Below are positions 48,208 through 59,172 of a stretch of 64,000 nucleotides of DNA, one piece after another. The position numbers and the translations under genes are program-made. The notes beneath the pieces are model-generated. The model ran no database searches. It was given only the letters and a program-made list of their open reading frames with translations, and had not been told where the DNA came from. This DNA comes from Candidatus Eremiobacteraceae bacterium (lineage in GTDB: Bacteria; Vulcanimicrobiota; Vulcanimicrobiia; Eremiobacterales; Eremiobacteraceae). Each line of letters opens with the position of its first letter. The first letter of the stretch is position 1. The DNA lies in the NCBI GenBank assembly GCA_035710745.1, contig DASTCX010000014.1, positions 1 through 64,000 of the forward strand. The letters run 5' to 3'.

Positions 48208-51200
48208 TCACGGCTTCGAATGGGCCGCATCGTAGGACGGCGACCATATCTCGGGTGCTTCGGCTCCGACAGCCGACAAATAACGTGCACGCCAATCGGC
48301 GTAGTCGCGCTTGGCTTCCACGATCCGGGATTCTTCACAAAGCGCCTCGAGCCGAGCTCGCACAGCTTCGAGATCGAAGGGCGCCACTTCGAGCAGGCGT
48401 TCGTAAGCGAGGCGCTGGCCCGTGATGTCGCCGGCTGCCGAGCGTTCGGACGCGAGCCAACGGAGCGCCTCGAGGCACGTCGCCCGGAGCCGCTCGCGCT
48501 CTCGCCATTGCCAACCGCCCTCCTGCATGCCTTCGAGAAAATCGCCGCGATACAGCGACGTCGCCGCCGCGTAGTTCGTACGAGCGCCGGAGTTGTCGCC
48601 GGCTGCCGCTGCTTGCTGCGCGCGCTCTATGCTCGCGTCGAAATCGTCGACGTCGATCGTCGTGCCCGCCGGTGCGACGAAGCAATACGTATTCGCCTCG
48701 TACTTGATGACCTCGCCGATCGCTTTGCGCACGGCGGTGATCGTCACGCGAAGGCTGTCGTGGGCGGCGTCCGCGTCGCTATCGGGCCAATAAAGGTCGA
48801 CGAGCCGTTCGCGCGCGACACCTTGACCGCGGTTGGCGACGAGGTACGCGAATATCTCGGGCGCGCGCCGGCGCTTCCATGCTTCGGGTGCGACGTGCGT
48901 GCCGCCGATGCTCACCCTTAAGGATCCGAGCATTTCGATCCGCAGCGCCGCCGCCGGGCGACCCTCGCGGATGAACGGCATGAGGCCGGAACCGATCTGC
49001 CAGCGACGCATATCGAGGCGCAGATTTTCGAACGCCGCGGCCTTCGTGCGGAGCAAGAACCGGTAGTCGCGTTGGTGGATGAGCGCGATCGCTTCGGTCG
49101 CGGCCTGCGATGCCGCTCGATCGAGGTCGATCGAAAGCGCACCCTTCGCCTGCTTCGTGCAGCGCGCGAGGATGACGGCCGAGTCGATGCATGCAGTGGC
49201 ATGAAGCAGCGCGTTCAGCCCGTCGCCGGAAGCGACGACCGCTTCGCGAGCCGCATTCGCCGCCGCCTCCCACTCGCCGCGAGCGACGGCGCACGCGGCG
49301 CGCGTGATAAGCATGGGCGCGATCTGCTGGCGCCGGCCAGCGCCTTTGAAGACGCCGATCGCGCGCGCGCTCAAGACGTCGGCACGATCGACGTCACCTT
49401 TGGCGAGCGCGCATTGCGCGAGACCGTGCTCGATGTCGGGCAATACGAGGACGTCACCCGGATCGCATGCCGCCTCGGCTTCGCGGAACGCGGCTTCGGC
49501 GCCGGCGATCTCGCCGCGCATGAGAGCGAGGACGCCGCGCTGTTCGTGGGCGCGCGCGATCATCGACGTCGCACCGATGTCCTGCGCTTGGGCAAGAAGC
49601 GCGTCGGCGGCGCGTTCGGCGTCATCGACGTCGCCGAGAAGCGTCTTCGCGTAGACGATATCGCCGAGCGTCGTCAGACGCGACACGCGCTGCCCCGCCG
49701 CTTCTTTGAGTTTCAGCGCGCGTTCGTACATCGAGAGACCGGCGTAGATATCGCCGCGGCGGAGATGTGCGACCGCCGTGTTGTGGAGGACGAGCCCATG
49801 CGCGCCAAGGTCGCCGCGGCTGACCACAGACGGCGTGATCTCCTTGTAGATCTCGAGCGCTTCGTCGAGACGCTCGGTTTCCAAGTTGACGGCCGCGAGC
49901 GTCATCCGCAGGCTCGTGACGCTCGTCTCGGGCAGGTCGAGCCCGACCGCGAGCGCCTCGTCGAGCATGGTCCGCAACCGCTCGAACTCGCCCCGCGAGG
50001 CGAGGATCGGAGCGCAGATGCGCACGCTCTCGGCGAGGACGTCATATTGCTTGCGTTGACGAGCTCCGGCGATCGCGCGCTCGAGCGAAGACAGCGCGGC
50101 ATCCCACTCGCCGCGCTCGCGCTGAAGCCGGCCGAGCGCGCCGAGCAGCGTCGGACTCGAGGCGATGCGCTGTTCCGGGATCTTGCGGACGATCGCGCCG
50201 ACCGCCGCGACGAGGCCGGCGCGCAGCAGTGCGAAGGCCCTCTCTTCTAGGACGTCCGAGGCTTGCGCGACGTCGCCGCCGTCGAGATAATGCTCGATCG
50301 CCGCAGCCGGGTCGCCGCGAGCGGCCAAGAAGTCGCCGGCGCGTCGATGGAGGAGCGCGGCTCGGTCTGCAGGCTGCGATCTGAGCGCGTGATGGCGCAA
50401 GAATTCTTGGAAGAGCTTGTGGTACGTGAATGCATCGTCGGAGATCTGGACGACGAAAAGGCCTCGGCGGGCGAACGATTCGAGCGTCGCACGCGAATCG
50501 CTCGCGCCGCGAATCGCATCGCACAATCCGACCTCGAGCTGATCGACGACCGATGTGTCTTCGAGGAATCGCCGGTCCGACTCGCCTAGGCTGTTCAAGA
50601 CCTCGCTTGCAAGATAGTCGAAGAGAAAGCGTCGAGCATCCTCGTCTCCGGCGGCAAGCGATGCGGGCTGCTCGCCGGTGCTTTTTCCCGAGCCGCCCGA
50701 AGCGATGAGCGCGAGACCCGCCGGCCAGCCCTCGGCGCGAGAAACGAGCCAGGCCGACCCCTTTCGCGCGTCGTCGTGCGTTGTGCGGTCGAGAAACGTC
50801 CGCGTCTCGTCTTCGTCGAATGCGAGGTCTGTTGCGCCGAACGAGATGAGCTGCGTCGAAGCGGCGATCTGATGAAGGGGGATCGGGATCGAGCGGCCGG
50901 TGACGATGAAACACGCGCCGTGACGATAACCGCGGTCGACGAGCTCGCCGACGGCGGCAAGCGTGCGGCTTCCTTCTATAGTATGTGCGTCGTCGAATAC
51001 GAGGAGCGGAGCGTTTGAATCGTCTTGCGTCGCGAGCGCGTCGGCGAAGCGGCCGCCGATGTCCTTGGGCGATCCGAGACTTGCGGCGTCGACCGAGTCG
51101 AACGAAGGCATGTCGAGGCCGAGCGATCGCAGACCCGCGTCGAGGTGCGTGGCGAAAACGGCGAGGTCGGTGTCGGACTGATCGAGGCTATACCAGAGTT

Positions 51201-51375
51201 TCGGGCCCTTCCACGTCTCGAAGAGGCGGCTCGCGAGGACCGTCTTGCCGTAACCGGGACCCGCGATGATCGAGACGACGCGTATGCCCGGCTTGAACCG
51301 CCGCTCGAGATGTGGACGCTCGAGCCAATTGGAAAGCAAAGGCGGCGGCGTGAACTTCAGCCGATGGACAAACAC
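48208..51375 (-). CDS. MalT-like ATPase regulator with C-terminal BTAD
   Basis: A 1055-residue protein. An N-terminal MalT/LuxR-type NTPase has P-loop GPGYGKTVLA (Lys44) and LLVFDDAH Walker B, a helical middle part (TPR-like, residues 350-790), and a C-terminal OmpR-type winged helix (LRIEMLGSLRVSIGGTHVAP, residue 805 on) with BTAD to residue 1045. This is the reverse order of the 6125 regulator. It lies between the two sedolisin genes on the same strand, so it probably controls one or both. Confidence 0.88.
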   Translation of the reverse strand: MFVHRLKFTPPPLLSNWLERPHLERRFKPGIRVVSIIAGPGYGKTVLASRLFETWKGPKLWYSLDQSDTDLAVFATHLDAGLRSLGLDMPSFDSVDAASLGSPKDIGGRFADALATQDDSNAPLLVFDDAHTIEGSRTLAAVGELVDRGYRHGACFIVTGRSIPIPLHQIAASTQLISFGATDLAFDEDETRTFLDRTTHDDARKGSAWLVSRAEGWPAGLALIASGGSGKSTGEQPASLAAGDEDARRFLFDYLASEVLNSLGESDRRFLEDTSVVDQLEVGLCDAIRGASDSRATLESFARRGLFVVQISDDAFTYHKLFQEFLRHHALRSQPADRAALLHRRAGDFLAARGDPAAAIEHYLDGGDVAQASDVLEERAFALLRAGLVAAVGAIVRKIPEQRIASSPTLLGALGRLQRERGEWDAALSSLERAIAGARQRKQYDVLAESVRICAPILASRGEFERLRTMLDEALAVGLDLPETSVTSLRMTLAAVNLETERLDEALEIYKEITPSVVSRGDLGAHGLVLHNTAVAHLRRGDIYAGLSMYERALKLKEAAGQRVSRLTTLGDIVYAKTLLGDVDDAERAADALLAQAQDIGATSMIARAHEQRGVLALMRGEIAGAEAAFREAEAACDPGDVLVLPDIEHGLAQCALAKGDVDRADVLSARAIGVFKGAGRRQQIAPMLITRAACAVARGEWEAAANAAREAVVASGDGLNALLHATACIDSAVILARCTKQAKGALSIDLDRAASQAATEAIALIHQRDYRFLLRTKAAAFENLRLDMRRWQIGSGLMPFIREGRPAAALRIEMLGSLRVSIGGTHVAPEAWKRRRAPEIFAYLVANRGQGVARERLVDLYWPDSDADAAHDSLRVTITAVRKAIGEVIKYEANTYCFVAPAGTTIDVDDFDASIERAQQAAAAGDNSGARTNYAAATSLYRGDFLEGMQEGGWQWRERERLRATCLEALRWLASERSAAGDITGQRLAYERLLEVAPFDLEAVRARLEALCEESRIVEAKRDYADWRARYLSAVGAEAPEIWSPSYDAAHSKP

Positions 51376-51709: not shown

Positions 51710-53608
51710 TCAGTGGCCCGAAAAGATCGAGTTCGCGATGTCTTGCTGCATGACGCAGTAGTCGACCGAACCCATCCCTGTGGGCGTATCCCAGCCTGGT
51801 CCTGACGGAACGCCCAGACCGTTCGCCCCGATCAGGATGTCGTGGAATCCGCCGACCGGCGCAGTTGTGTCGGGCGGCAGCGCCGTCGTGTCGTCACCGG
51901 GCTCGCCCGTCGGCGTGCATGCGGTGCTTCCGAGCGGACACGGCTCGTAGTAGCCGTAGACTCCGTAGTAGACGGGCGCCGCGAAACCGAGCCCGTTGTA
52001 GAAGTGCGACTCGAGCCGCGCCCAGACGCCCATCGAGAGCGGCGAGGACAGACTCGTGCCGCCGACGCCGGTCTGCGCGCCGTTGACGAAGACGTCGGCG
52101 GGGCAGCCGTTGTTGTCGCCGCACATCGCGATGTCGGCGATGCCGCGTCCGATGCCGGCCTTCGCCTGCACCGTGCACTCAGCGCAGATGCCGTTCGCTT
52201 GCCAATACGGCGCCAACTCGAACGCGCTGTAACCGCCGCCTGTGCCGACCCACGCGTGCTCGCCGTAGTACGTGCCGGGTTCGTTGCCGTTCGCGTTCGT
52301 GTCGAGCGTCGTGCCGCCGACCGCGACGACGTACGGCGACGACGCCGGGTAGCATGTCTCGGGCAAGCCGGTGGCCGGCGCGCCCGTCGCGAGGAGCACC
52401 GGGCAGCCTTCGCCGTTGTCGCCGGTGGAGGCGAACATCGTCATGCCTTGCGCAGCGGCCTGGTTGAGTTCTTCATCGTCGACGAGCATCGCGCCGTCGG
52501 CGAACGCGACCGCTTCGGCCTCGCCGAACGACGAGTTCCCGGCCTGCGTGTAGCGATCGTTCACCCACGCGCTATACGCGAGCGCGATGTCCGAGTCGCT
52601 CAGCGACGTCGTGTCGTAGACGTAGAGGTGTTTGACGGTTTGCGCCATGCCGGTCGACATCTGCGTGTCGAGATCCCATTCGTCGAGACCGGACGTATCC
52701 GTGCTTTTGATGCCGACCGTTCGGACGCTGTAGGCGACCTTCGGAAGGCCCCAGTACGCTTCAGCCGTACGAAGGTCGGTCACGACCTGCGTGACGTCGC
52801 CTTCCGCGATGACCGCGACCGACGTGCGTAAGCCGGTGCACGTCGCGGGGCAGACGCTCGGCGCGGCATCATACGCGACTTGATATTGCGGCGGTCCATA
52901 TTCGCCGCCGACGCAGATGCCGCCGGTCGTCGACAGACATGGCGGCGGCGTGCCTTGAGCCTGATCGCCCATGAAGCGACCCGGCGCCGGCGCGCTGAGC
53001 TGAACGCGCGCGTGTGTGAGGTGCACGTTCATCTGGTTCGCATTCGACAGCCCGAGCACCGCGACGACGAGACCGCGGAACTGCGCAGGCACGAGCGGAG
53101 CGGTCACGTTGCCGTAGACCGTACGGCCGTTGACGATCGCCGCTCTGATTTGCGTATGGAACGCGGATTCGACTCGCGACGCCGGCCCGTACGCGCTCAC
53201 GATGAGATGGTTCGGCTCGATCGTGATGTCGGTGAAGCCTTGACGCTGGAGGTAAAACGCGACCGATGCCGCCTGCGAGTACGTGGGATTGAAAGCCGCG
53301 GTGAATTCTGACGGTGACAGCCAGCGTTGGAAGAGCGCGCTTCCAGGCGTGTGCTGCTGACGAAGGATGTTATTCGCTCCGACGCGATCGCGCATGCCGA
53401 GACCGACGACGATGTGCATCGGAACGGTGTCGGGAAGCCTGCCGACTCGCAGGCGTGGATCGTTGACGAGCCGCATCGCCTGCGTGGCCGTCGGCGCCCA
53501 TGCTTGTGGCGTCTCGTGGCGTGCAGATGCGATGAGCGGGCTGGCGAAGACCGGCGCGGCGACGGCGAGCGTGGCGGCCGCCGCGCAGGTCATGACGAAG
53601 AGCTTCAT
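51710..53608 (-). CDS. S53 family peptidase (sedolisin) 2
   Basis: A 632-residue protein; ATG 53608 follows GGGAGGAAAT, and the longer frame to 53635 only adds nine residues. Signal peptide (LFVMTCAAAATLAVAAPVFA). Pro-domain to about residue 210. The catalytic Glu310/Asp314 are in GLDEWDLDTQM, oxyanion Asp397 in TGDNGEGC, nucleophile Ser519 in GVGGTSLSSP. Differences from sedolisin 1 (Cys-rich: CPATCTG, CAECTV) show long divergence rather than recent duplication. Confidence 0.93.
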   Translation of the reverse strand: MKLFVMTCAAAATLAVAAPVFASPLIASARHETPQAWAPTATQAMRLVNDPRLRVGRLPDTVPMHIVVGLGMRDRVGANNILRQQHTPGSALFQRWLSPSEFTAAFNPTYSQAASVAFYLQRQGFTDITIEPNHLIVSAYGPASRVESAFHTQIRAAIVNGRTVYGNVTAPLVPAQFRGLVVAVLGLSNANQMNVHLTHARVQLSAPAPGRFMGDQAQGTPPPCLSTTGGICVGGEYGPPQYQVAYDAAPSVCPATCTGLRTSVAVIAEGDVTQVVTDLRTAEAYWGLPKVAYSVRTVGIKSTDTSGLDEWDLDTQMSTGMAQTVKHLYVYDTTSLSDSDIALAYSAWVNDRYTQAGNSSFGEAEAVAFADGAMLVDDEELNQAAAQGMTMFASTGDNGEGCPVLLATGAPATGLPETCYPASSPYVVAVGGTTLDTNANGNEPGTYYGEHAWVGTGGGYSAFELAPYWQANGICAECTVQAKAGIGRGIADIAMCGDNNGCPADVFVNGAQTGVGGTSLSSPLSMGVWARLESHFYNGLGFAAPVYYGVYGYYEPCPLGSTACTPTGEPGDDTTALPPDTTAPVGGFHDILIGANGLGVPSGPGWDTPTGMGSVDYCVMQQDIANSIFSGH

Positions 53609-53720
53609 GAGACCTATTTCCTCCCTCGCGCGCACTTAGGACGCGCCTCTGCGAGGTTAGAATAGGCTACCGGCAGTGACAAACCGCGAACAAACCGCGT
53701 GTCCCGCCCGAAGATGGAAT

Positions 53721-53824: not shown

Positions 53825-54073
53825 CTAGGGCTGGTATCCGCCTGCGATCCAGTCAGACAACAGCTTCACCTTAGCGTCATCCCAGTACGGGCCACCCGGC
53901 GGCATGCGCGGCTCCTGATCCCCCGTCAAATATTCGTAGACGTTCTTCGCGTTGTCGGGCTGCGACATCCAGGCGTGATCAGCGAGGAGCACTCCAAAGC
54001 CTTCCATATGGTCGATGTCGTCGTCCGTGAAGAGCGGTTTGATATCGCGTTCGAATGAGACAGAACCGGCCAT
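53825..54073 (-). CDS. Small cytochrome c-like protein lacking a CxxCH site
   Basis: An 82-residue protein; ATG 54073 has a superb AAGGAGGAG upstream, so the longer frame is not the real start. FERDIKPLFTDDDIDHMEGF and EPRMPPGGPYWDDAKVKLLS, ending WIAGGYQP, resemble the C-terminal part of small c-type cytochromes, with the MPPGGPW axial-Met motif. It has no CxxCH and no signal peptide. It is divergent from a CxxCH-containing protein and may be its haem-less or cytoplasmic relative. Confidence 0.7.
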   Translation of the reverse strand: MAGSVSFERDIKPLFTDDDIDHMEGFGVLLADHAWMSQPDNAKNVYEYLTGDQEPRMPPGGPYWDDAKVKLLSDWIAGGYQP

Positions 54074-54112
54074 GGTTTTCTCCTCCTTGTAGAAGTCTGT
54101 ATACCCCGTCGA

Positions 54113-54137
54113 GCCGAGCTTCGCTCGGCCCACTACA
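54113..54137. repeat. GCCGAGC-type palindromic repeat
   Basis: GCCGAGCTTCGCTCGGC with tail CCACTACAAT, between the divergent starts of the small cytochrome-like gene and the cytochrome operon. Confidence 0.8.
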
Positions 54138-54185
54138 ATACTCATTCCTACAGGCGAGGGCGGGCGGCAGACGAACCTTCCAGGC

Positions 54186-55718
54186 ATGAGCCATGCAGCC
54201 GTTAGTCGGCTCGCGGTCACTGCATTGTCGGCGGTGGCCGCCGTCCTTATCGCGTACGCCGTGCGCGGGCACGCGGTTGCGGCGGCAAATGGCCTACCGG
54301 CGAACCCCTGCCCGCTGTCGTCGATCGCGATCGCGAGCGGCATACCCCAGGACTCGGCGCAGACGTCGCAGATCTACTTCGACTGCTTCGCGTGGCAAGA
54401 GTTCATCGGCCTCAATTGGGATGCGGATCCCGATCATGCCGGCGCGCCGAACCCATCGGCACCGGCGTCGGCGTTCGGAAAGCCGCTTGATCACGCGCCG
54501 CCCGTCTTCGAATCGTACGCCGACGCGCTTGACGTCTTCAAACCGGGAGCGGCGCCGCCGAGCAAGTGGGGCACGATCAGCCCGTCGCCGTGCGCCATTC
54601 ATGGCATGGTGTCGGGCCCGGGGCGTCGCCTGCTCCGCATGTCGTCGATCGTCGCACCCGACTTTCAGACGCCGAACGGCGTGAGGCAGGCGTTCCCCGC
54701 GTCAGGTCCGAGCTGGCTCGCGGATCGCGACGGCAACATGGTATGGTACCAAATCCTCATCGACAGGGACGAGTTCGAATATATCGTCGACAAGCAGTAC
54801 TACGACGCAGACCGCCAGCTGCAGACGATCGAGAGCGACGGGCGGATCGACATGCCTGCGGGCGTACCCGGAGGCGCGCTCGGTTCGATCGAGATCAAAG
54901 CGGCGTGGCTGCCGATCTCCGATCCGGCTCGTCAGAAGCGCTATCGCATGCAGCACGCGATCATCCTCGATGCGGATGGCGGATGTCACTCGGTCGACGT
55001 CGGACTCGTTGCGCTCCATATCATCCACAAGACGCAATCGCAGCCGACGTGGGTGTGGTCGACGTTCGAGCACGTCGACGACGCCCCCGCGGTGGGTGCA
55101 TCGCCGGGCAACTATCTCTTCAATCGTCCTGCTTGCCAGCCGTCGCCGATCCCCGCATCGTGCGAGTTGAACAGACCGCCGGGCGCGCGGACGTCGTGCG
55201 GTGCGAACGAACCGCCGGCATACATGCCGAGCGCGTACTTCTCGAAAAAGGCGGCTTGCCCGATTTATCCGATCCAAGTGGCGCATGCGAATCCCACCGA
55301 TCCGACGGCGGCATCGGTGAACGCGTACGTCGCATCGCTCATCCTTGCGCAAAACCCGAGTTCGGTCTACCAATATTACCGGCTCGTCAACGTGCTATGG
55401 GCGTCGAACTCCGCCGATCCGGATGCAGGACCATCGCCGCCCATCGAACCCGTGCTCGTCAACGGCATCACACCGCCGACGACGCAGCCGGTCGCGAACG
55501 TCATCACCGAGACGTACGCGCAGCAGATGACCTGCCTTTCATGTCATGCGAACGCGCGGATCGCAAAGTCGGCGGACGAGTTGGGAAAGTGGAAGCCGTA
55601 TTTCTCGGATTTCAGCTTCATCATGTCGCAGGCGCACACGCCGCCACCGGTCGCAGCCGGTTTCCTCACACGGCCGAGCTTCGCTCGGCATACCACATCA
55701 GCTCGTCTAACGCCATGA
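54186..55718 (+). CDS. Secreted protein with C-terminal CxxCH haem motif
   Basis: A 510-residue protein. Hydrophobic signal segment, then YFDCFAWQEFIGLNWDADPD near residue 65 and FESYADALDVFKP, blocks I associate with an uncharacterised cytochrome family. One haem motif, TCLSCHANARIAKSA, is near the C-terminus. The tail FLTRPSFARHTTSAR is encoded by a GCCGAGC-type palindrome (55673-55689), so the original C-terminus has been altered or extended. It overlaps the next gene (ATGA). Probably periplasmic electron transfer or an oxidase partner. Confidence 0.75.
   Translation: MSHAAVSRLAVTALSAVAAVLIAYAVRGHAVAAANGLPANPCPLSSIAIASGIPQDSAQTSQIYFDCFAWQEFIGLNWDADPDHAGAPNPSAPASAFGKPLDHAPPVFESYADALDVFKPGAAPPSKWGTISPSPCAIHGMVSGPGRRLLRMSSIVAPDFQTPNGVRQAFPASGPSWLADRDGNMVWYQILIDRDEFEYIVDKQYYDADRQLQTIESDGRIDMPAGVPGGALGSIEIKAAWLPISDPARQKRYRMQHAIILDADGGCHSVDVGLVALHIIHKTQSQPTWVWSTFEHVDDAPAVGASPGNYLFNRPACQPSPIPASCELNRPPGARTSCGANEPPAYMPSAYFSKKAACPIYPIQVAHANPTDPTAASVNAYVASLILAQNPSSVYQYYRLVNVLWASNSADPDAGPSPPIEPVLVNGITPPTTQPVANVITETYAQQMTCLSCHANARIAKSADELGKWKPYFSDFSFIMSQAHTPPPVAAGFLTRPSFARHTTSARLTP
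55673..55698. repeat. GCCGAGC-type palindromic repeat inside a gene's 3' end
   Basis: A perfect palindrome GCCGAGCTTCGCTCGGC with tail ATACCACAT, within the last codons of the cytochrome-like gene. Confidence 0.85.
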
Positions 55719-57331
55719 ACGCATTTTCGCCGCCGGCGAACGTCGTCGACTTCCCATCCGATCCCGCGAAACAAGCGGCGCTCGTCGCGCGCTGGACGCA
55801 GTTCCTCGACGGCTTCATGCGGCTCGCGATCGTCGGCGATCCGTGGACCAACGTCAACGATTCCAATCGAACGCTGTTCTTCAATCCGCTGGCGACGTCG
55901 ATCGGCCCGAACGCGATCGTCGCGCCGATCACTTGGTTCGCGTTCCCGAACCGCGTGCTCTCGTATTTCGCCGCCTCGCAAGGTTCGCCGTACGGCTTGA
56001 CCGACGTCGAGTTGTACGAACTCGCCGACCAAGGGTTTCTTGCGGGCAAGCCGGATTTCGCGCACGGATTTCCGCCGGTGCCGAGCGACGTCTACCCGGT
56101 CATCGATTGGAAACAACCGAAAGCCGGCTGGCGTGAATACGGGCCGCCCGGTGCGCGAGGGTGGCAAGACGAGTATTGCGAGTGGTGCGTGCAGCGCGAC
56201 GGACAGGGCCGGATCGTCCGCATCGACTTCACGTGCGAGAATCCCGAGTACTGGGTCGCGCTATGGAAGACGGATCCGAACGCGGTTCTTTCCATATATA
56301 GAGCTGTCGTCAACGCGTCCGTCCAACTCGACGACATCATCATGCACGACAAGACCGGCGCTCCGATCGTCGACCCCGAGACGGGACTTCCCGCATATAA
56401 CCCCATCAACAAGTGGAATACGGGCACGATCGCGACCCCGACGAGCGGGGGCGCCATGCATCTGACAAGTCCGCCCAACGACATCGATTCAGAGATATAC
56501 CTCGCTGCCGCCGCGACGCTGCTGCGAAACGTCACGCCGTACACCGCTGCCGCGCTTATCGATTGCGCCGCGTACGGCGTGCCCTATAGGAACAGCGATC
56601 CGAACATCGGCTACAACGTCAATCGGATGGTGAAGAACGCCGGCGGCAACGGGCTGCGGATGGCGACGCTCACCGATCCGATCGGGCTCTACATGCAGCA
56701 ACCCGATTTCAGTTCGTACGCGACGCCGGATGGGACCGACGCGAGCACGTTTTGGACCGTCGTTCGCGGCTCCGCGCCCGGCATGATACTCCATGCGACG
56801 TTCGCCGTGCCAGCGTCGAAAGGTTACACGGTGAGCGACGTGACGATCGGCGGGAAGCCGATCGCGTACGCGAGTCAGATAGGGCAGACGTTCCAGATGG
56901 GTCTCAGCGCGACCGTCCAACCGACGGCGCAAAACGAATCGGCGCTCCCGTGCGTCGACGTCAAACCCGATGGCTCGTGCAGCCCGTGGCCGCAGGTCAT
57001 CATGGGACCTGGGATGCTCGAAGCATACGCCGCGATCATGGGCGTGCTCGGCACGTCTGGTCTGCCGCCGCCGACCCTCCCGCAGGGTAAGAGCGCGAGT
57101 TTTGCGCTTCAGGTGCTCTATGCCACCGAAAAGGCGACGATCGAAGTCCTCGGCGGCGGCGTCGACGTCACCGTGACGAGCGCGAGCGTCGACGGCACGA
57201 CCGCGACCTTCATGGTGGACATCGCGGTCGCGGCGGACGCAACGCCCGGGGTTCGGTCGGTGCAAGTGAGCGATACGACGTATCCCCCAGGGCCGCCGGC
57301 GCCGGCGATGCTCATCGTCGCACCCGCATGA
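55715..57331 (+). CDS. Unknown conserved protein with FTCENPEYW motif
   Basis: A 538-residue protein starting in the ATGA overlap with the cytochrome gene; the longer upstream frame is non-coding. It has no signal peptide. Blocks WQDEYCEWCVQRD, IDFTCENPEYWVAL, YNPINKWNTGTIA and GAMHLTSPPNDIDSEIYLAA look like a conserved family of unknown function; I recall homologues in actinobacteria and cyanobacteria but cannot name a domain. The C-terminal 80 residues are Ig-like. It is translationally coupled to the haem protein before it and the sensor after it. Confidence 0.72.
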   Translation: MNAFSPPANVVDFPSDPAKQAALVARWTQFLDGFMRLAIVGDPWTNVNDSNRTLFFNPLATSIGPNAIVAPITWFAFPNRVLSYFAASQGSPYGLTDVELYELADQGFLAGKPDFAHGFPPVPSDVYPVIDWKQPKAGWREYGPPGARGWQDEYCEWCVQRDGQGRIVRIDFTCENPEYWVALWKTDPNAVLSIYRAVVNASVQLDDIIMHDKTGAPIVDPETGLPAYNPINKWNTGTIATPTSGGAMHLTSPPNDIDSEIYLAAAATLLRNVTPYTAAALIDCAAYGVPYRNSDPNIGYNVNRMVKNAGGNGLRMATLTDPIGLYMQQPDFSSYATPDGTDASTFWTVVRGSAPGMILHATFAVPASKGYTVSDVTIGGKPIAYASQIGQTFQMGLSATVQPTAQNESALPCVDVKPDGSCSPWPQVIMGPGMLEAYAAIMGVLGTSGLPPPTLPQGKSASFALQVLYATEKATIEVLGGGVDVTVTSASVDGTTATFMVDIAVAADATPGVRSVQVSDTTYPPGPPAPAMLIVAPA

Positions 57332-59172
57332 GATCGCCCGCGGACGACGCTCGCTTTCGTCGGGGCGTGCGGATCGGCGTCGTCGTTGCGCTCGGGTTGT
57401 TCATGCTCGGTTTGGCCACGCCGAACATCTCGCAGCTGTGGCATCCGTTCGCGCAGCTGCCGATCAACGTCAACTACGACGGCGTCATCACGTCGGTCGA
57501 TCCTGGGAGCGATGCTGCAAGCGAGGGCGTCGCGCCGGGCGACGTCGTCGACTTCAGCTCGACGACGCTGAGTCAGCGGCTCGTACTTCTCGATCTCCAC
57601 TATCCGCGCGGAGGCGATACATTCACGTTCCGCGTCCGCGAAAAGGGCGTGAGCCGGGTCGTCTCGATCCGGGCCGAAGGCCGGCCGGAGATTCTCGAAG
57701 ATATCATCGTCGTGCTGCGACGCTCGACGTACGTCTTGTTCGTCGGCATCGCGGCGTTCATCTTGCTCCGGCGACCGAACAAGATGACCTGGGCGTTTTA
57801 CCTGTATTCGCTGGCGGCCATCTACGGCAACGGCGAGTATTTCGGCTTCTTGCCGGCGCCGGGGTATTTCACGATCTGCGAGATCCAAGTCGTCTTGCTC
57901 GCGCTCGGCAACGCCGCGTTCCTCACGTTCGCCGCGCGCTTTCCGAGCGACCGGCCCGAAGGGTGGGCGGTTTGGGCCGATCGTGCCGCGCCGCTCGCAT
58001 TCGTGCTGCTTGCCGTGACGAGCCTCGGCGCCGATTTCGGTGCGGTGCTCTTCGGCGTTCCTTCGCAAGCGCTCGTCCTCGCGTCGACGGTCAGTAAGAT
58101 AGCCGTATTCTCGATCGCGCTCTTCACGCTATTCCACACGTACTTCGGGCGCCGCGGCCAAGAGCGCCAACGCTTGAAAATCGTCGTCTGGGCGCTCGTC
58201 ATCGCGTACGCTGCGAACGTCCTCATCTTGTGGATCAACACGTTTCCGCTTTCGTTCGAGGTGGCGTTCTGGTGGGATGCGCTTGGGGCGCTCAACCTCG
58301 TCATCCCGATCGCGGTCGCGTACGCGGTGCTGCGCTACCGGGTCATGGACGTCAATTTCATCTTCAGCCGCGCGCTCGTCTACGGCGTTCTGACGACCGG
58401 GCTCGTCGCGATGTTCGCGCTCATCGACTGGATCGTCGGCACGGTTCTCGCGCAAGAGCGGTTGGCGGTGGCTGCCAACGTCGTCGCCGCGGTCGTCGTC
58501 GGCCTCTCGCTCAACGGCATCCACAGTCGCGTCGAGCGGATCATCCGGAGCGTGCTCTTCAGGCGCCGGCATGCGGCCGCTCGACGACTGGCACTGCTCG
58601 CATCGACGTTGCCGCACGTGACCGACAGCGCGACCATCTCCGCCATGGTCGTCGACGAGCCGATGGAAGCGCTGTCGCTGGCCTCCGCCGCGCTGTTCCG
58701 GTCGAACGAGCGCGGTTCGTTCGAGCGGGTGTGGGCCCTCGGCTGGGGGGAAGGCGCCGCCTGCGATCTCGACCCGTTCGAGCCGCTCGTCGACCGGCTC
58801 CGTGCGGAGGGCGAGCCGACCCGCGTGAGCAGGAGGGATCTCGTCCGCGACGGGCTGCCGGCGGGCGATGCGTCGCCGATCGTCGCGGTGCCGATCGTCG
58901 TACGAAGTCAGCTCGAGGCCGTGGCGATGTACGGCGCCCATACGGGTGGAGAAGACCTCGATCCCGATGAGATCGGATCGCTCGGCCGTATCGGCGAGGC
59001 CGCCGGCGCCGCTTACTATCACCTCGAAGCCGATTCGTTGCGCAACGCGCTTGAAGGGCTCGGTCGAGAGATCGACACATGGCGCGCACGGGCGCTCGAA
59101 CTGGGTTGGAACGAAGCGGAAACGGCCGGCGATGCCGCGGTCGACGAGGCAAAAGAAGAAGAGCGAAGTTGA
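57328..59172 (+). CDS. Membrane sensor with PDZ, multiple TM and GAF domain
   Basis: A 614-residue protein overlapping the previous gene by ATGA. N-terminal TM (residues 13-32), a periplasmic PDZ-like domain (SVDPGSDAASEGVAPGDVVD), about seven further TM helices (residues 125-385), then a cytoplasmic GAF-like domain (420-570) and a coiled C-terminus. There is no histidine kinase, GGDEF or HTH output domain. It may modulate a partner or sense a ligand for the haem-protein operon. Confidence 0.78.
   Translation: MRSPADDARFRRGVRIGVVVALGLFMLGLATPNISQLWHPFAQLPINVNYDGVITSVDPGSDAASEGVAPGDVVDFSSTTLSQRLVLLDLHYPRGGDTFTFRVREKGVSRVVSIRAEGRPEILEDIIVVLRRSTYVLFVGIAAFILLRRPNKMTWAFYLYSLAAIYGNGEYFGFLPAPGYFTICEIQVVLLALGNAAFLTFAARFPSDRPEGWAVWADRAAPLAFVLLAVTSLGADFGAVLFGVPSQALVLASTVSKIAVFSIALFTLFHTYFGRRGQERQRLKIVVWALVIAYAANVLILWINTFPLSFEVAFWWDALGALNLVIPIAVAYAVLRYRVMDVNFIFSRALVYGVLTTGLVAMFALIDWIVGTVLAQERLAVAANVVAAVVVGLSLNGIHSRVERIIRSVLFRRRHAAARRLALLASTLPHVTDSATISAMVVDEPMEALSLASAALFRSNERGSFERVWALGWGEGAACDLDPFEPLVDRLRAEGEPTRVSRRDLVRDGLPAGDASPIVAVPIVVRSQLEAVAMYGAHTGGEDLDPDEIGSLGRIGEAAGAAYYHLEADSLRNALEGLGREIDTWRARALELGWNEAETAGDAAVDEAKEEERS

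Follow-up and report, generated by a model that had tools for sequence, protein, structure and literature searches.

A conserved two-gene module pairing a putative secreted c-type haem protein with a partner of no known family: a candidate two-component oxidoreductase

Pairs of a dehydrogenase and a cytochrome are already known. The direct-electron-transfer flavin adenine dinucleotide (FAD) dehydrogenases of the GMC family are complexes of alpha, beta and gamma subunits in which the GMC catalytic subunit is accompanied by a 'hitchhiker' protein (PMC6719666). A haem protein can also act on its partner, as MauG oxidises residues of methylamine dehydrogenase to a protein-derived cofactor. Here, we describe two adjacent genes, P1 and P2, from an uncultured bacterium of the Vulcanimicrobiota/Eremiobacterota (contig DASTCX010000014.1, assembly GCA_035710745.1); the window analysed is a stretch of 64,000 nucleotides, and all positions refer to it. 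We propose, at a probability of about one half, that P1 and P2 form a two-component oxidoreductase in which P2 is catalytic and P1 is a secreted cytochrome taking the electrons of P2 to the respiratory chain. What is new in such a pair is the partner proposed to be catalytic, which has no known family or fold. Recognising P1 as a cytochrome for electron transfer would help to interpret many operons that lack annotation, and the confidently modelled P2, with its domain of no known relative, could be tested for new redox chemistry. The finding would gain weight should P2 turn out to be a new catalytic domain.

P1 and P2 do form a two-gene module. P1 (P0001; 54186-55718, plus strand) encodes 510 amino acids and P2 (P0002; 55715-57331, plus strand) encodes 538, and the genes are linked by an ATGA overlap in which P2 begins with the ATG at 55715 and P1 ends with the TGA at 55716-55718. 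A scan of public genomes revealed 79 distinct P2 loci (numbered with L below). P1 is the neighbour of P2 in 74 of them, c13, another CxxCH family, in three (L060, L071, L074), and in the remaining two (L006, L036) P2 is closely followed by the end of the contig. The pair is found in at least six phyla: Bacteroidota, Myxococcota, Pseudomonadota, Cyanobacteriota, Bdellovibrionota and Vulcanimicrobiota/Eremiobacterota. In 73 of the 74 pairs P2 comes first, and only in the genus of the window does P1 precede P2; the P2-P1 spacing has a median gap of 51.5 bases, with an ATGA overlap in several. Mirror-tree analysis of the 74 pairs gave r = 0.88 between P1 and P2 distances, compared with a maximum of 0.11 in 1000 permutations. 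This shows co-inheritance, for which common descent of a linked pair suffices and physical interaction is not required. Phyla are intermixed in the tree, and the window's genus is an isolated branch inside the P1-linked clade; in one relative ('Candidatus Eremiobacteria') P2 is 91% identical. P2 has a scattered distribution, with matches in 2 of 149 genomes of its own phylum (1 of 70 genera), 3 of 292 in the phylum of a Nostoc genome, 6 of 398 (one marginal, E=2.6e-4) in the order of a Beijerinckiaceae genome, 15 of 195 (two of them fragments) in Myxococcota and 3 of 369 in the class of a Pseudomonas genome. No P2 homologues were found in phages. Tyrosinase-family genes directly adjoin the P2-P1 pair at L023, L029, L041, L052 and L082. 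The annotated records consulted call both proteins 'hypothetical', one P1 relative being called 'cytochrome C', and our literature searches yielded no paper on the pair.

P1 has sequence features of a c-type cytochrome. Exactly one CxxCH occurs in 73 of 74 P1 homologues, the exception (L054) being an open reading frame (ORF) split across two frames, and the window's P1 carries it as CLSCH at residues 450-454 (55533-55547, plus strand). One further histidine, H278, is invariant. A crude hydropathy test detected a hydrophobic N-terminus in 89% of the homologues, including the window's P1, so that this protein combines a CxxCH with a predicted export segment, as expected of a c-type cytochrome; a c-haem assembly gene (PF01578) is present in the same genome. 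No Pfam or NCBIfam model matched P1 above cut-off, no credible sequence relative was found in the PDB, and a domain scan of 44 homologues gave stray weak matches only. P1 does not match the DyP-type peroxidase profile, and it has one CxxCH instead of the two of MauG and bacterial cytochrome c peroxidase (bCCP) di-haem enzymes. The most fitting role for P1 is that of a cytochrome in electron transfer, mainly because relatives of P1 adjoin dehydrogenase and oxidase genes.

Many of these relatives occur without P2, and exclusive pairing was rejected from the P1 side. P1 was matched in 45 of 195 Myxococcota genomes and in 13 of 148 genomes of its own phylum, versus 15 of 195 and 2 of 149 for P2. 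In a hand-picked set of fewer than 30 loci, P1 relatives adjoin GMC oxidoreductases (L203, L213, L215, L217, L219; the operon of L217 includes a sorbitol-dehydrogenase-type small subunit), a pyrroloquinoline quinone (PQQ)-propeller protein (L207) and a molybdopterin-binding protein (L218). Both subunits I and II of cytochrome bd lie beside a P1 relative in L197, with related genes in L199 and L200. CxxCH was present in all P1 relatives sampled. In L197, L199 and L200, which are from related Eremiobacterota, the P1 paralogue is flanked by a beta-propeller/phosphoesterase protein on one side and by cytochrome bd subunit I on the other.

P2 is more conserved than P1. It consists of an N-terminal domain of about 440 residues without known relative and a C-terminal Ig-like domain (about residues 460-536; 57092-57322, plus strand), the latter recognised from the model, Foldseek and alignment. 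Two motifs stand out: RGWQDEYCEW (residues 148-157; 56156-56185, plus strand), whose core QDEY..W is invariant in a 31-row alignment, and FTCENPEYW (residues 172-180; 56228-56254, plus strand), in which E175 and Y179 are invariant. In total, 21 residues are invariant across 31 diverse members: W74, Q151, D152, E153, Y154, W157, E175, Y179, Y195, D207, Y228, N232, H249, N255, D295, P296, P322, Y326, R351, G352 and P366. The AlphaFold2 model of P2 is confident (mean pLDDT, the predicted local distance difference test, 93; predicted TM-score 0.92). Foldseek against the PDB returned only Ig-like domains among the best 50 matches by E-value, fitting the C-terminal strands, and a weak match of the core may sit below them; a viral model library likewise gave Ig-type domains only. 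No Pfam or NCBIfam model lies above cut-off, no PDB chain is credible by sequence with single sequences or profiles, and scanning 47 homologues for domains gave stray weak matches only. Specific families were also compared. P2 has no GMC profile match and no GMC fold among the matches listed. As the alpha subunit of quinohemoprotein amine dehydrogenase it reaches only E=0.14 and 12.9 bits with PF09099, compared with a cut-off of 22, and this match is confined to the Ig-like domain. Kinship with LodA/GoxA was rejected (profile comparison probability 0.1 against the LodA/GoxA protein of L088), and none of 47 members has a LodA-family Pfam match. P2 does not match the DyP profile, DyP being a neighbour of other P2 members only, and hhalign rejected homology of P2 to P1, c13 or DyP.

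In the oxidoreductase proposed here, P2 would be the catalytic subunit, of a family without known fold or cofactor. It would reach the compartment of P1 despite lacking a signal peptide and would pass electrons to the P1 haem. P1 would then hand them to the respiratory chain, like the cytochrome subunit of FAD-GMC or PQQ dehydrogenase complexes. This reading draws on the pairing and co-inheritance of the two genes, the CxxCH of P1, the exchange of partners, a fusion of c13 to P2 and the neighbours of P1 relatives; the invariant D152, E153, E175, H249, D295 and R351 and several Tyr and Trp residues are cited for it as well.

Several observations weigh against it. The AlphaFold2 model of P1 (pLDDT 83) gave zero Foldseek matches in the PDB and thus no known cytochrome fold. 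No oxidoreductase structure is among the Foldseek matches listed for P2, and no recognised cofactor motif was found in it. By the crude hydropathy test, P1 has a signal-peptide-like segment and P2 has none, which leaves the meeting place of the two proteins unexplained. No small hitchhiker subunit was found at P1-P2. Some P1 relatives adjoin unrelated genes, namely GH31 (L212), a kinase (L208) and a phosphodiesterase (L209), and the set of relatives gives adjacency only, with no frequency estimate. Furthermore, the rhizobial c13-like partners of P2 have lost both haem cysteines (GPFDSHVNG), and dehydrogenases do not ordinarily pass their electrons to a DyP. Three other explanations retain some weight, since neither the DyP-linked members nor the c13-like partners without haem cysteines fit simple electron transfer.

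Besides P1, P2 is associated with multiple partners, remote members of the P2 family adjoining a DyP-type haem peroxidase or a c13-like protein. c13, with one CxxCH (also at L150), is the second partner family in cyanobacteria and in Enhygromyxa; in Enhygromyxa, P2-P1 and c13-P2 pairs stand in tandem. Rhizobia and their relatives have a c13-like gene that lacks CxxCH ahead of P2, and in Azospirillum (L089) and Microvirga lotononidis (L185) a single ORF encodes both c13 and P2. A DyP-type peroxidase gene lies directly downstream of P2 in 8 loci (L087, L090, L091, L092, L093, L151, L182, L184), and GxxDG and AHIRKVNPR are intact in the six DyPs aligned. Homology among P1, c13 and DyP was rejected, as hhalign detected no profile similarity. 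One remote P2 member (L149) has no P1, c13 or DyP partner in the 14 kb examined. It is conceivable, if somewhat doubtful, that P2 is a new oxidoreductase catalytic domain with an undescribed fold and cofactor, coupled, according to lineage, with three or more haem-type partners that are unrelated to one another. On two Rhizobium plasmids (L183, L188), the c13-like gene is broken into two frames beside a shortened P2.

The DyP genes suggest peroxide coupling instead: P2 might be an H2O2-producing oxidase, or a partner dependent on H2O2, and the peroxide would be used by the haem protein, whether DyP or its CxxCH stand-in, with no electron flow from P2 to P1. An animal-type haem peroxidase flanks the P2 locus L090, LodA/GoxA-type oxidase genes lie near P2 in L088 (Bradyrhizobium) and L182, and a DAO-type FAD oxidase lies near P2 in L184, all of which fit such coupling. 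We nevertheless consider it unlikely, although it fares best among the rivals, since P2 has no recognised oxidase cofactor and the GMC, PQQ and molybdenum-type dehydrogenases and cytochrome bd beside P1 relatives fit electron transfer. The neighbourhood of L088 also contains a tryptophan 7-halogenase and a radical SAM protein.

Slightly less probable again is that the haem partner matures P2, either by modifying it, for example by converting a conserved Tyr or Trp to a protein-derived cofactor as MauG does, or by aiding its folding. Seven of the 21 invariant residues of P2 are Tyr or Trp, and a helper cytochrome that does not serve electron transfer is documented in TfcP, which acts for PilY1 (PMC8833165). 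C155, the obvious cysteine for a Cys-Trp link such as the cysteine tryptophylquinone of LodA/GoxA, and W157 are invariant in P1-linked members, but C155 is lost in three DyP-linked members. A Cys-Trp cofactor assignment was dropped because C155 is therefore not universal. P1 also has one CxxCH, against two in MauG-type enzymes, and its relatives adjoin enzymes with ordinary cofactors.

Rather improbable, too, is a non-enzymatic P2: a secreted protein with a binding or structural role that would carry the haem protein or set its position. The Ig-like domain, a fusion of P2 to phospholipase D in Mesorhizobium and Microvirga and a sub-threshold PA-IL lectin match in the tail of one Bacteroidota member (L037) would suit such a role. 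However, conservation resides in the N-terminal core, with its invariant acidic, His, Arg and aromatic residues, and not in the Ig domain, which is missing from the plasmid-borne c13-like- and DyP-linked members. The L037 match falls in an extra C-terminal domain of about 130 residues, which P2 homologues of L025, L026 and L058, also Bacteroidota, carry too.

The first-pass annotation had grouped P1 and P2 with P3 and the divergent P4. Its four ORFs and the ATGA overlaps linking P1, P2 and P3 were confirmed on the sequence, and so were a P1 with an N-terminal hydrophobic segment and one CxxCH and a 538-residue P2 with FTCENPEYW and WNTGTIA. P3 (P0003; 57328-59172, plus strand) is a PDZ-multi-transmembrane-GAF sensor-like protein whose ATG at 57328 overlaps the P2 stop at 57329-57331. 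The PDZ match is sub-threshold in P3 itself, whereas close paralogues match both PDZ and GAF. P3 accompanies P1-P2 only in the window's genus, where it follows P2 in the sister species with overlapping reading frames, and P3-like proteins occur in 49 of 61 genomes searched, with 11 matches (self included) in its own genome; the closest paralogue (E=2e-121) supports homology to the PDZ-transmembrane-GAF paralogues of the lineage. A distant paralogue of 1314 amino acids in the same genome (L172:1890-5831) carries C-terminal Trans_reg_C and BTAD domains and, by its predicted domains, joins a membrane sensor to a transcription regulator. This suggests that P3 is the sensor half of such regulators, and fusion of paralogues to Trans_reg_C/BTAD explains why P3 has no output domain. 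P3 is outside the conserved module and would be a sensor that joined the operon in this lineage.

P4 (P0004; 53825-54073, minus strand) is a cytochrome-like protein of 82 amino acids without CxxCH, divergent from the P1-P2-P3 operon; its motif reads MPPGGPYW, the earlier reading MPPGGPW having missed the Y. A longer reading of 172 amino acids is open, but homologues begin near the ATG of the 82-residue form. P4 relatives were found in 25 of 61 genomes searched, mostly without P2. Members of a small P4 profile lie beside P1 paralogues in L198, L207 and L224, with a weak partial match in L204, and the profile also matches a stretch within the N-terminal region of tyrosinases, with E ~1e-6 in L009/L011 and less strongly in L052 and L023. 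When P2-P1 pairs of other phyla were searched by motif for an adjacent P4-like gene, only the sister species was found to have one. P4 may be a small accessory protein of P1-type systems. That all four genes form one dedicated redox-sensing system, as first proposed, is very improbable: P3 does follow P2 in the sister species too, but it joins the pair in this genus only and has many paralogues elsewhere, and P4 relatives occur in genomes without P2. Conservation of the neighbours together thus extends across phyla for P1 and P2 and stays within the genus for P3 and the full set; a coherent redox system without known pathway stands for P1 and P2 and moderately for P4, while its sensing half is unsupported.

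Further upstream and divergent, a 641-residue protein (51713-53635, minus strand) carries a pro-kumamolisin activation domain (PF09286) and is probably an S53-type peptidase. In Rhizobium leguminosarum (L181), an S53 peptidase lies two genes upstream of a c13-P2 pair. A 1055-residue AAA/TPR protein (48211-51375, minus strand) carries Trans_reg_C and BTAD domains, and no tRNA genes were detected within the window.

Compared with known systems, P1 shares with TfcP of Myxococcus xanthus its predicted secretion, its single CxxCH and a gene beside that of its partner; TfcP, however, adopts a cytochrome c fold and assists calcium binding by PilY1 (PMC8833165), whereas P1 has about 500 residues and no such fold was detected. 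The MauG/bCCP family likewise includes a c-type haem protein encoded with a partner that it may modify (PMC6405878), but that family is di-haem, and P1 has one CxxCH and no Pfam match. The cysteine tryptophylquinone amino-acid oxidases LodA/GoxA with LodB resemble the pair as a two-gene module of patchy distribution with tyrosinase-type neighbours (PMC4417212), and one P2 member lies inside a Bradyrhizobium LodA cluster. P2 nevertheless has no sequence or profile similarity to them and no universal Cys, and it is paired with a haem protein instead of a flavoprotein. Neither profiles nor folds among the matches listed identify P2 as a GMC flavoprotein, and P1, with its single CxxCH, contains no known cytochrome domain. 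Still, the direct-electron-transfer FAD/GMC complexes (PMC6719666) combine a catalytic subunit with a c-type cytochrome subunit, just as P1 adjoins P2, and relatives of P1 occur in true GMC operons.

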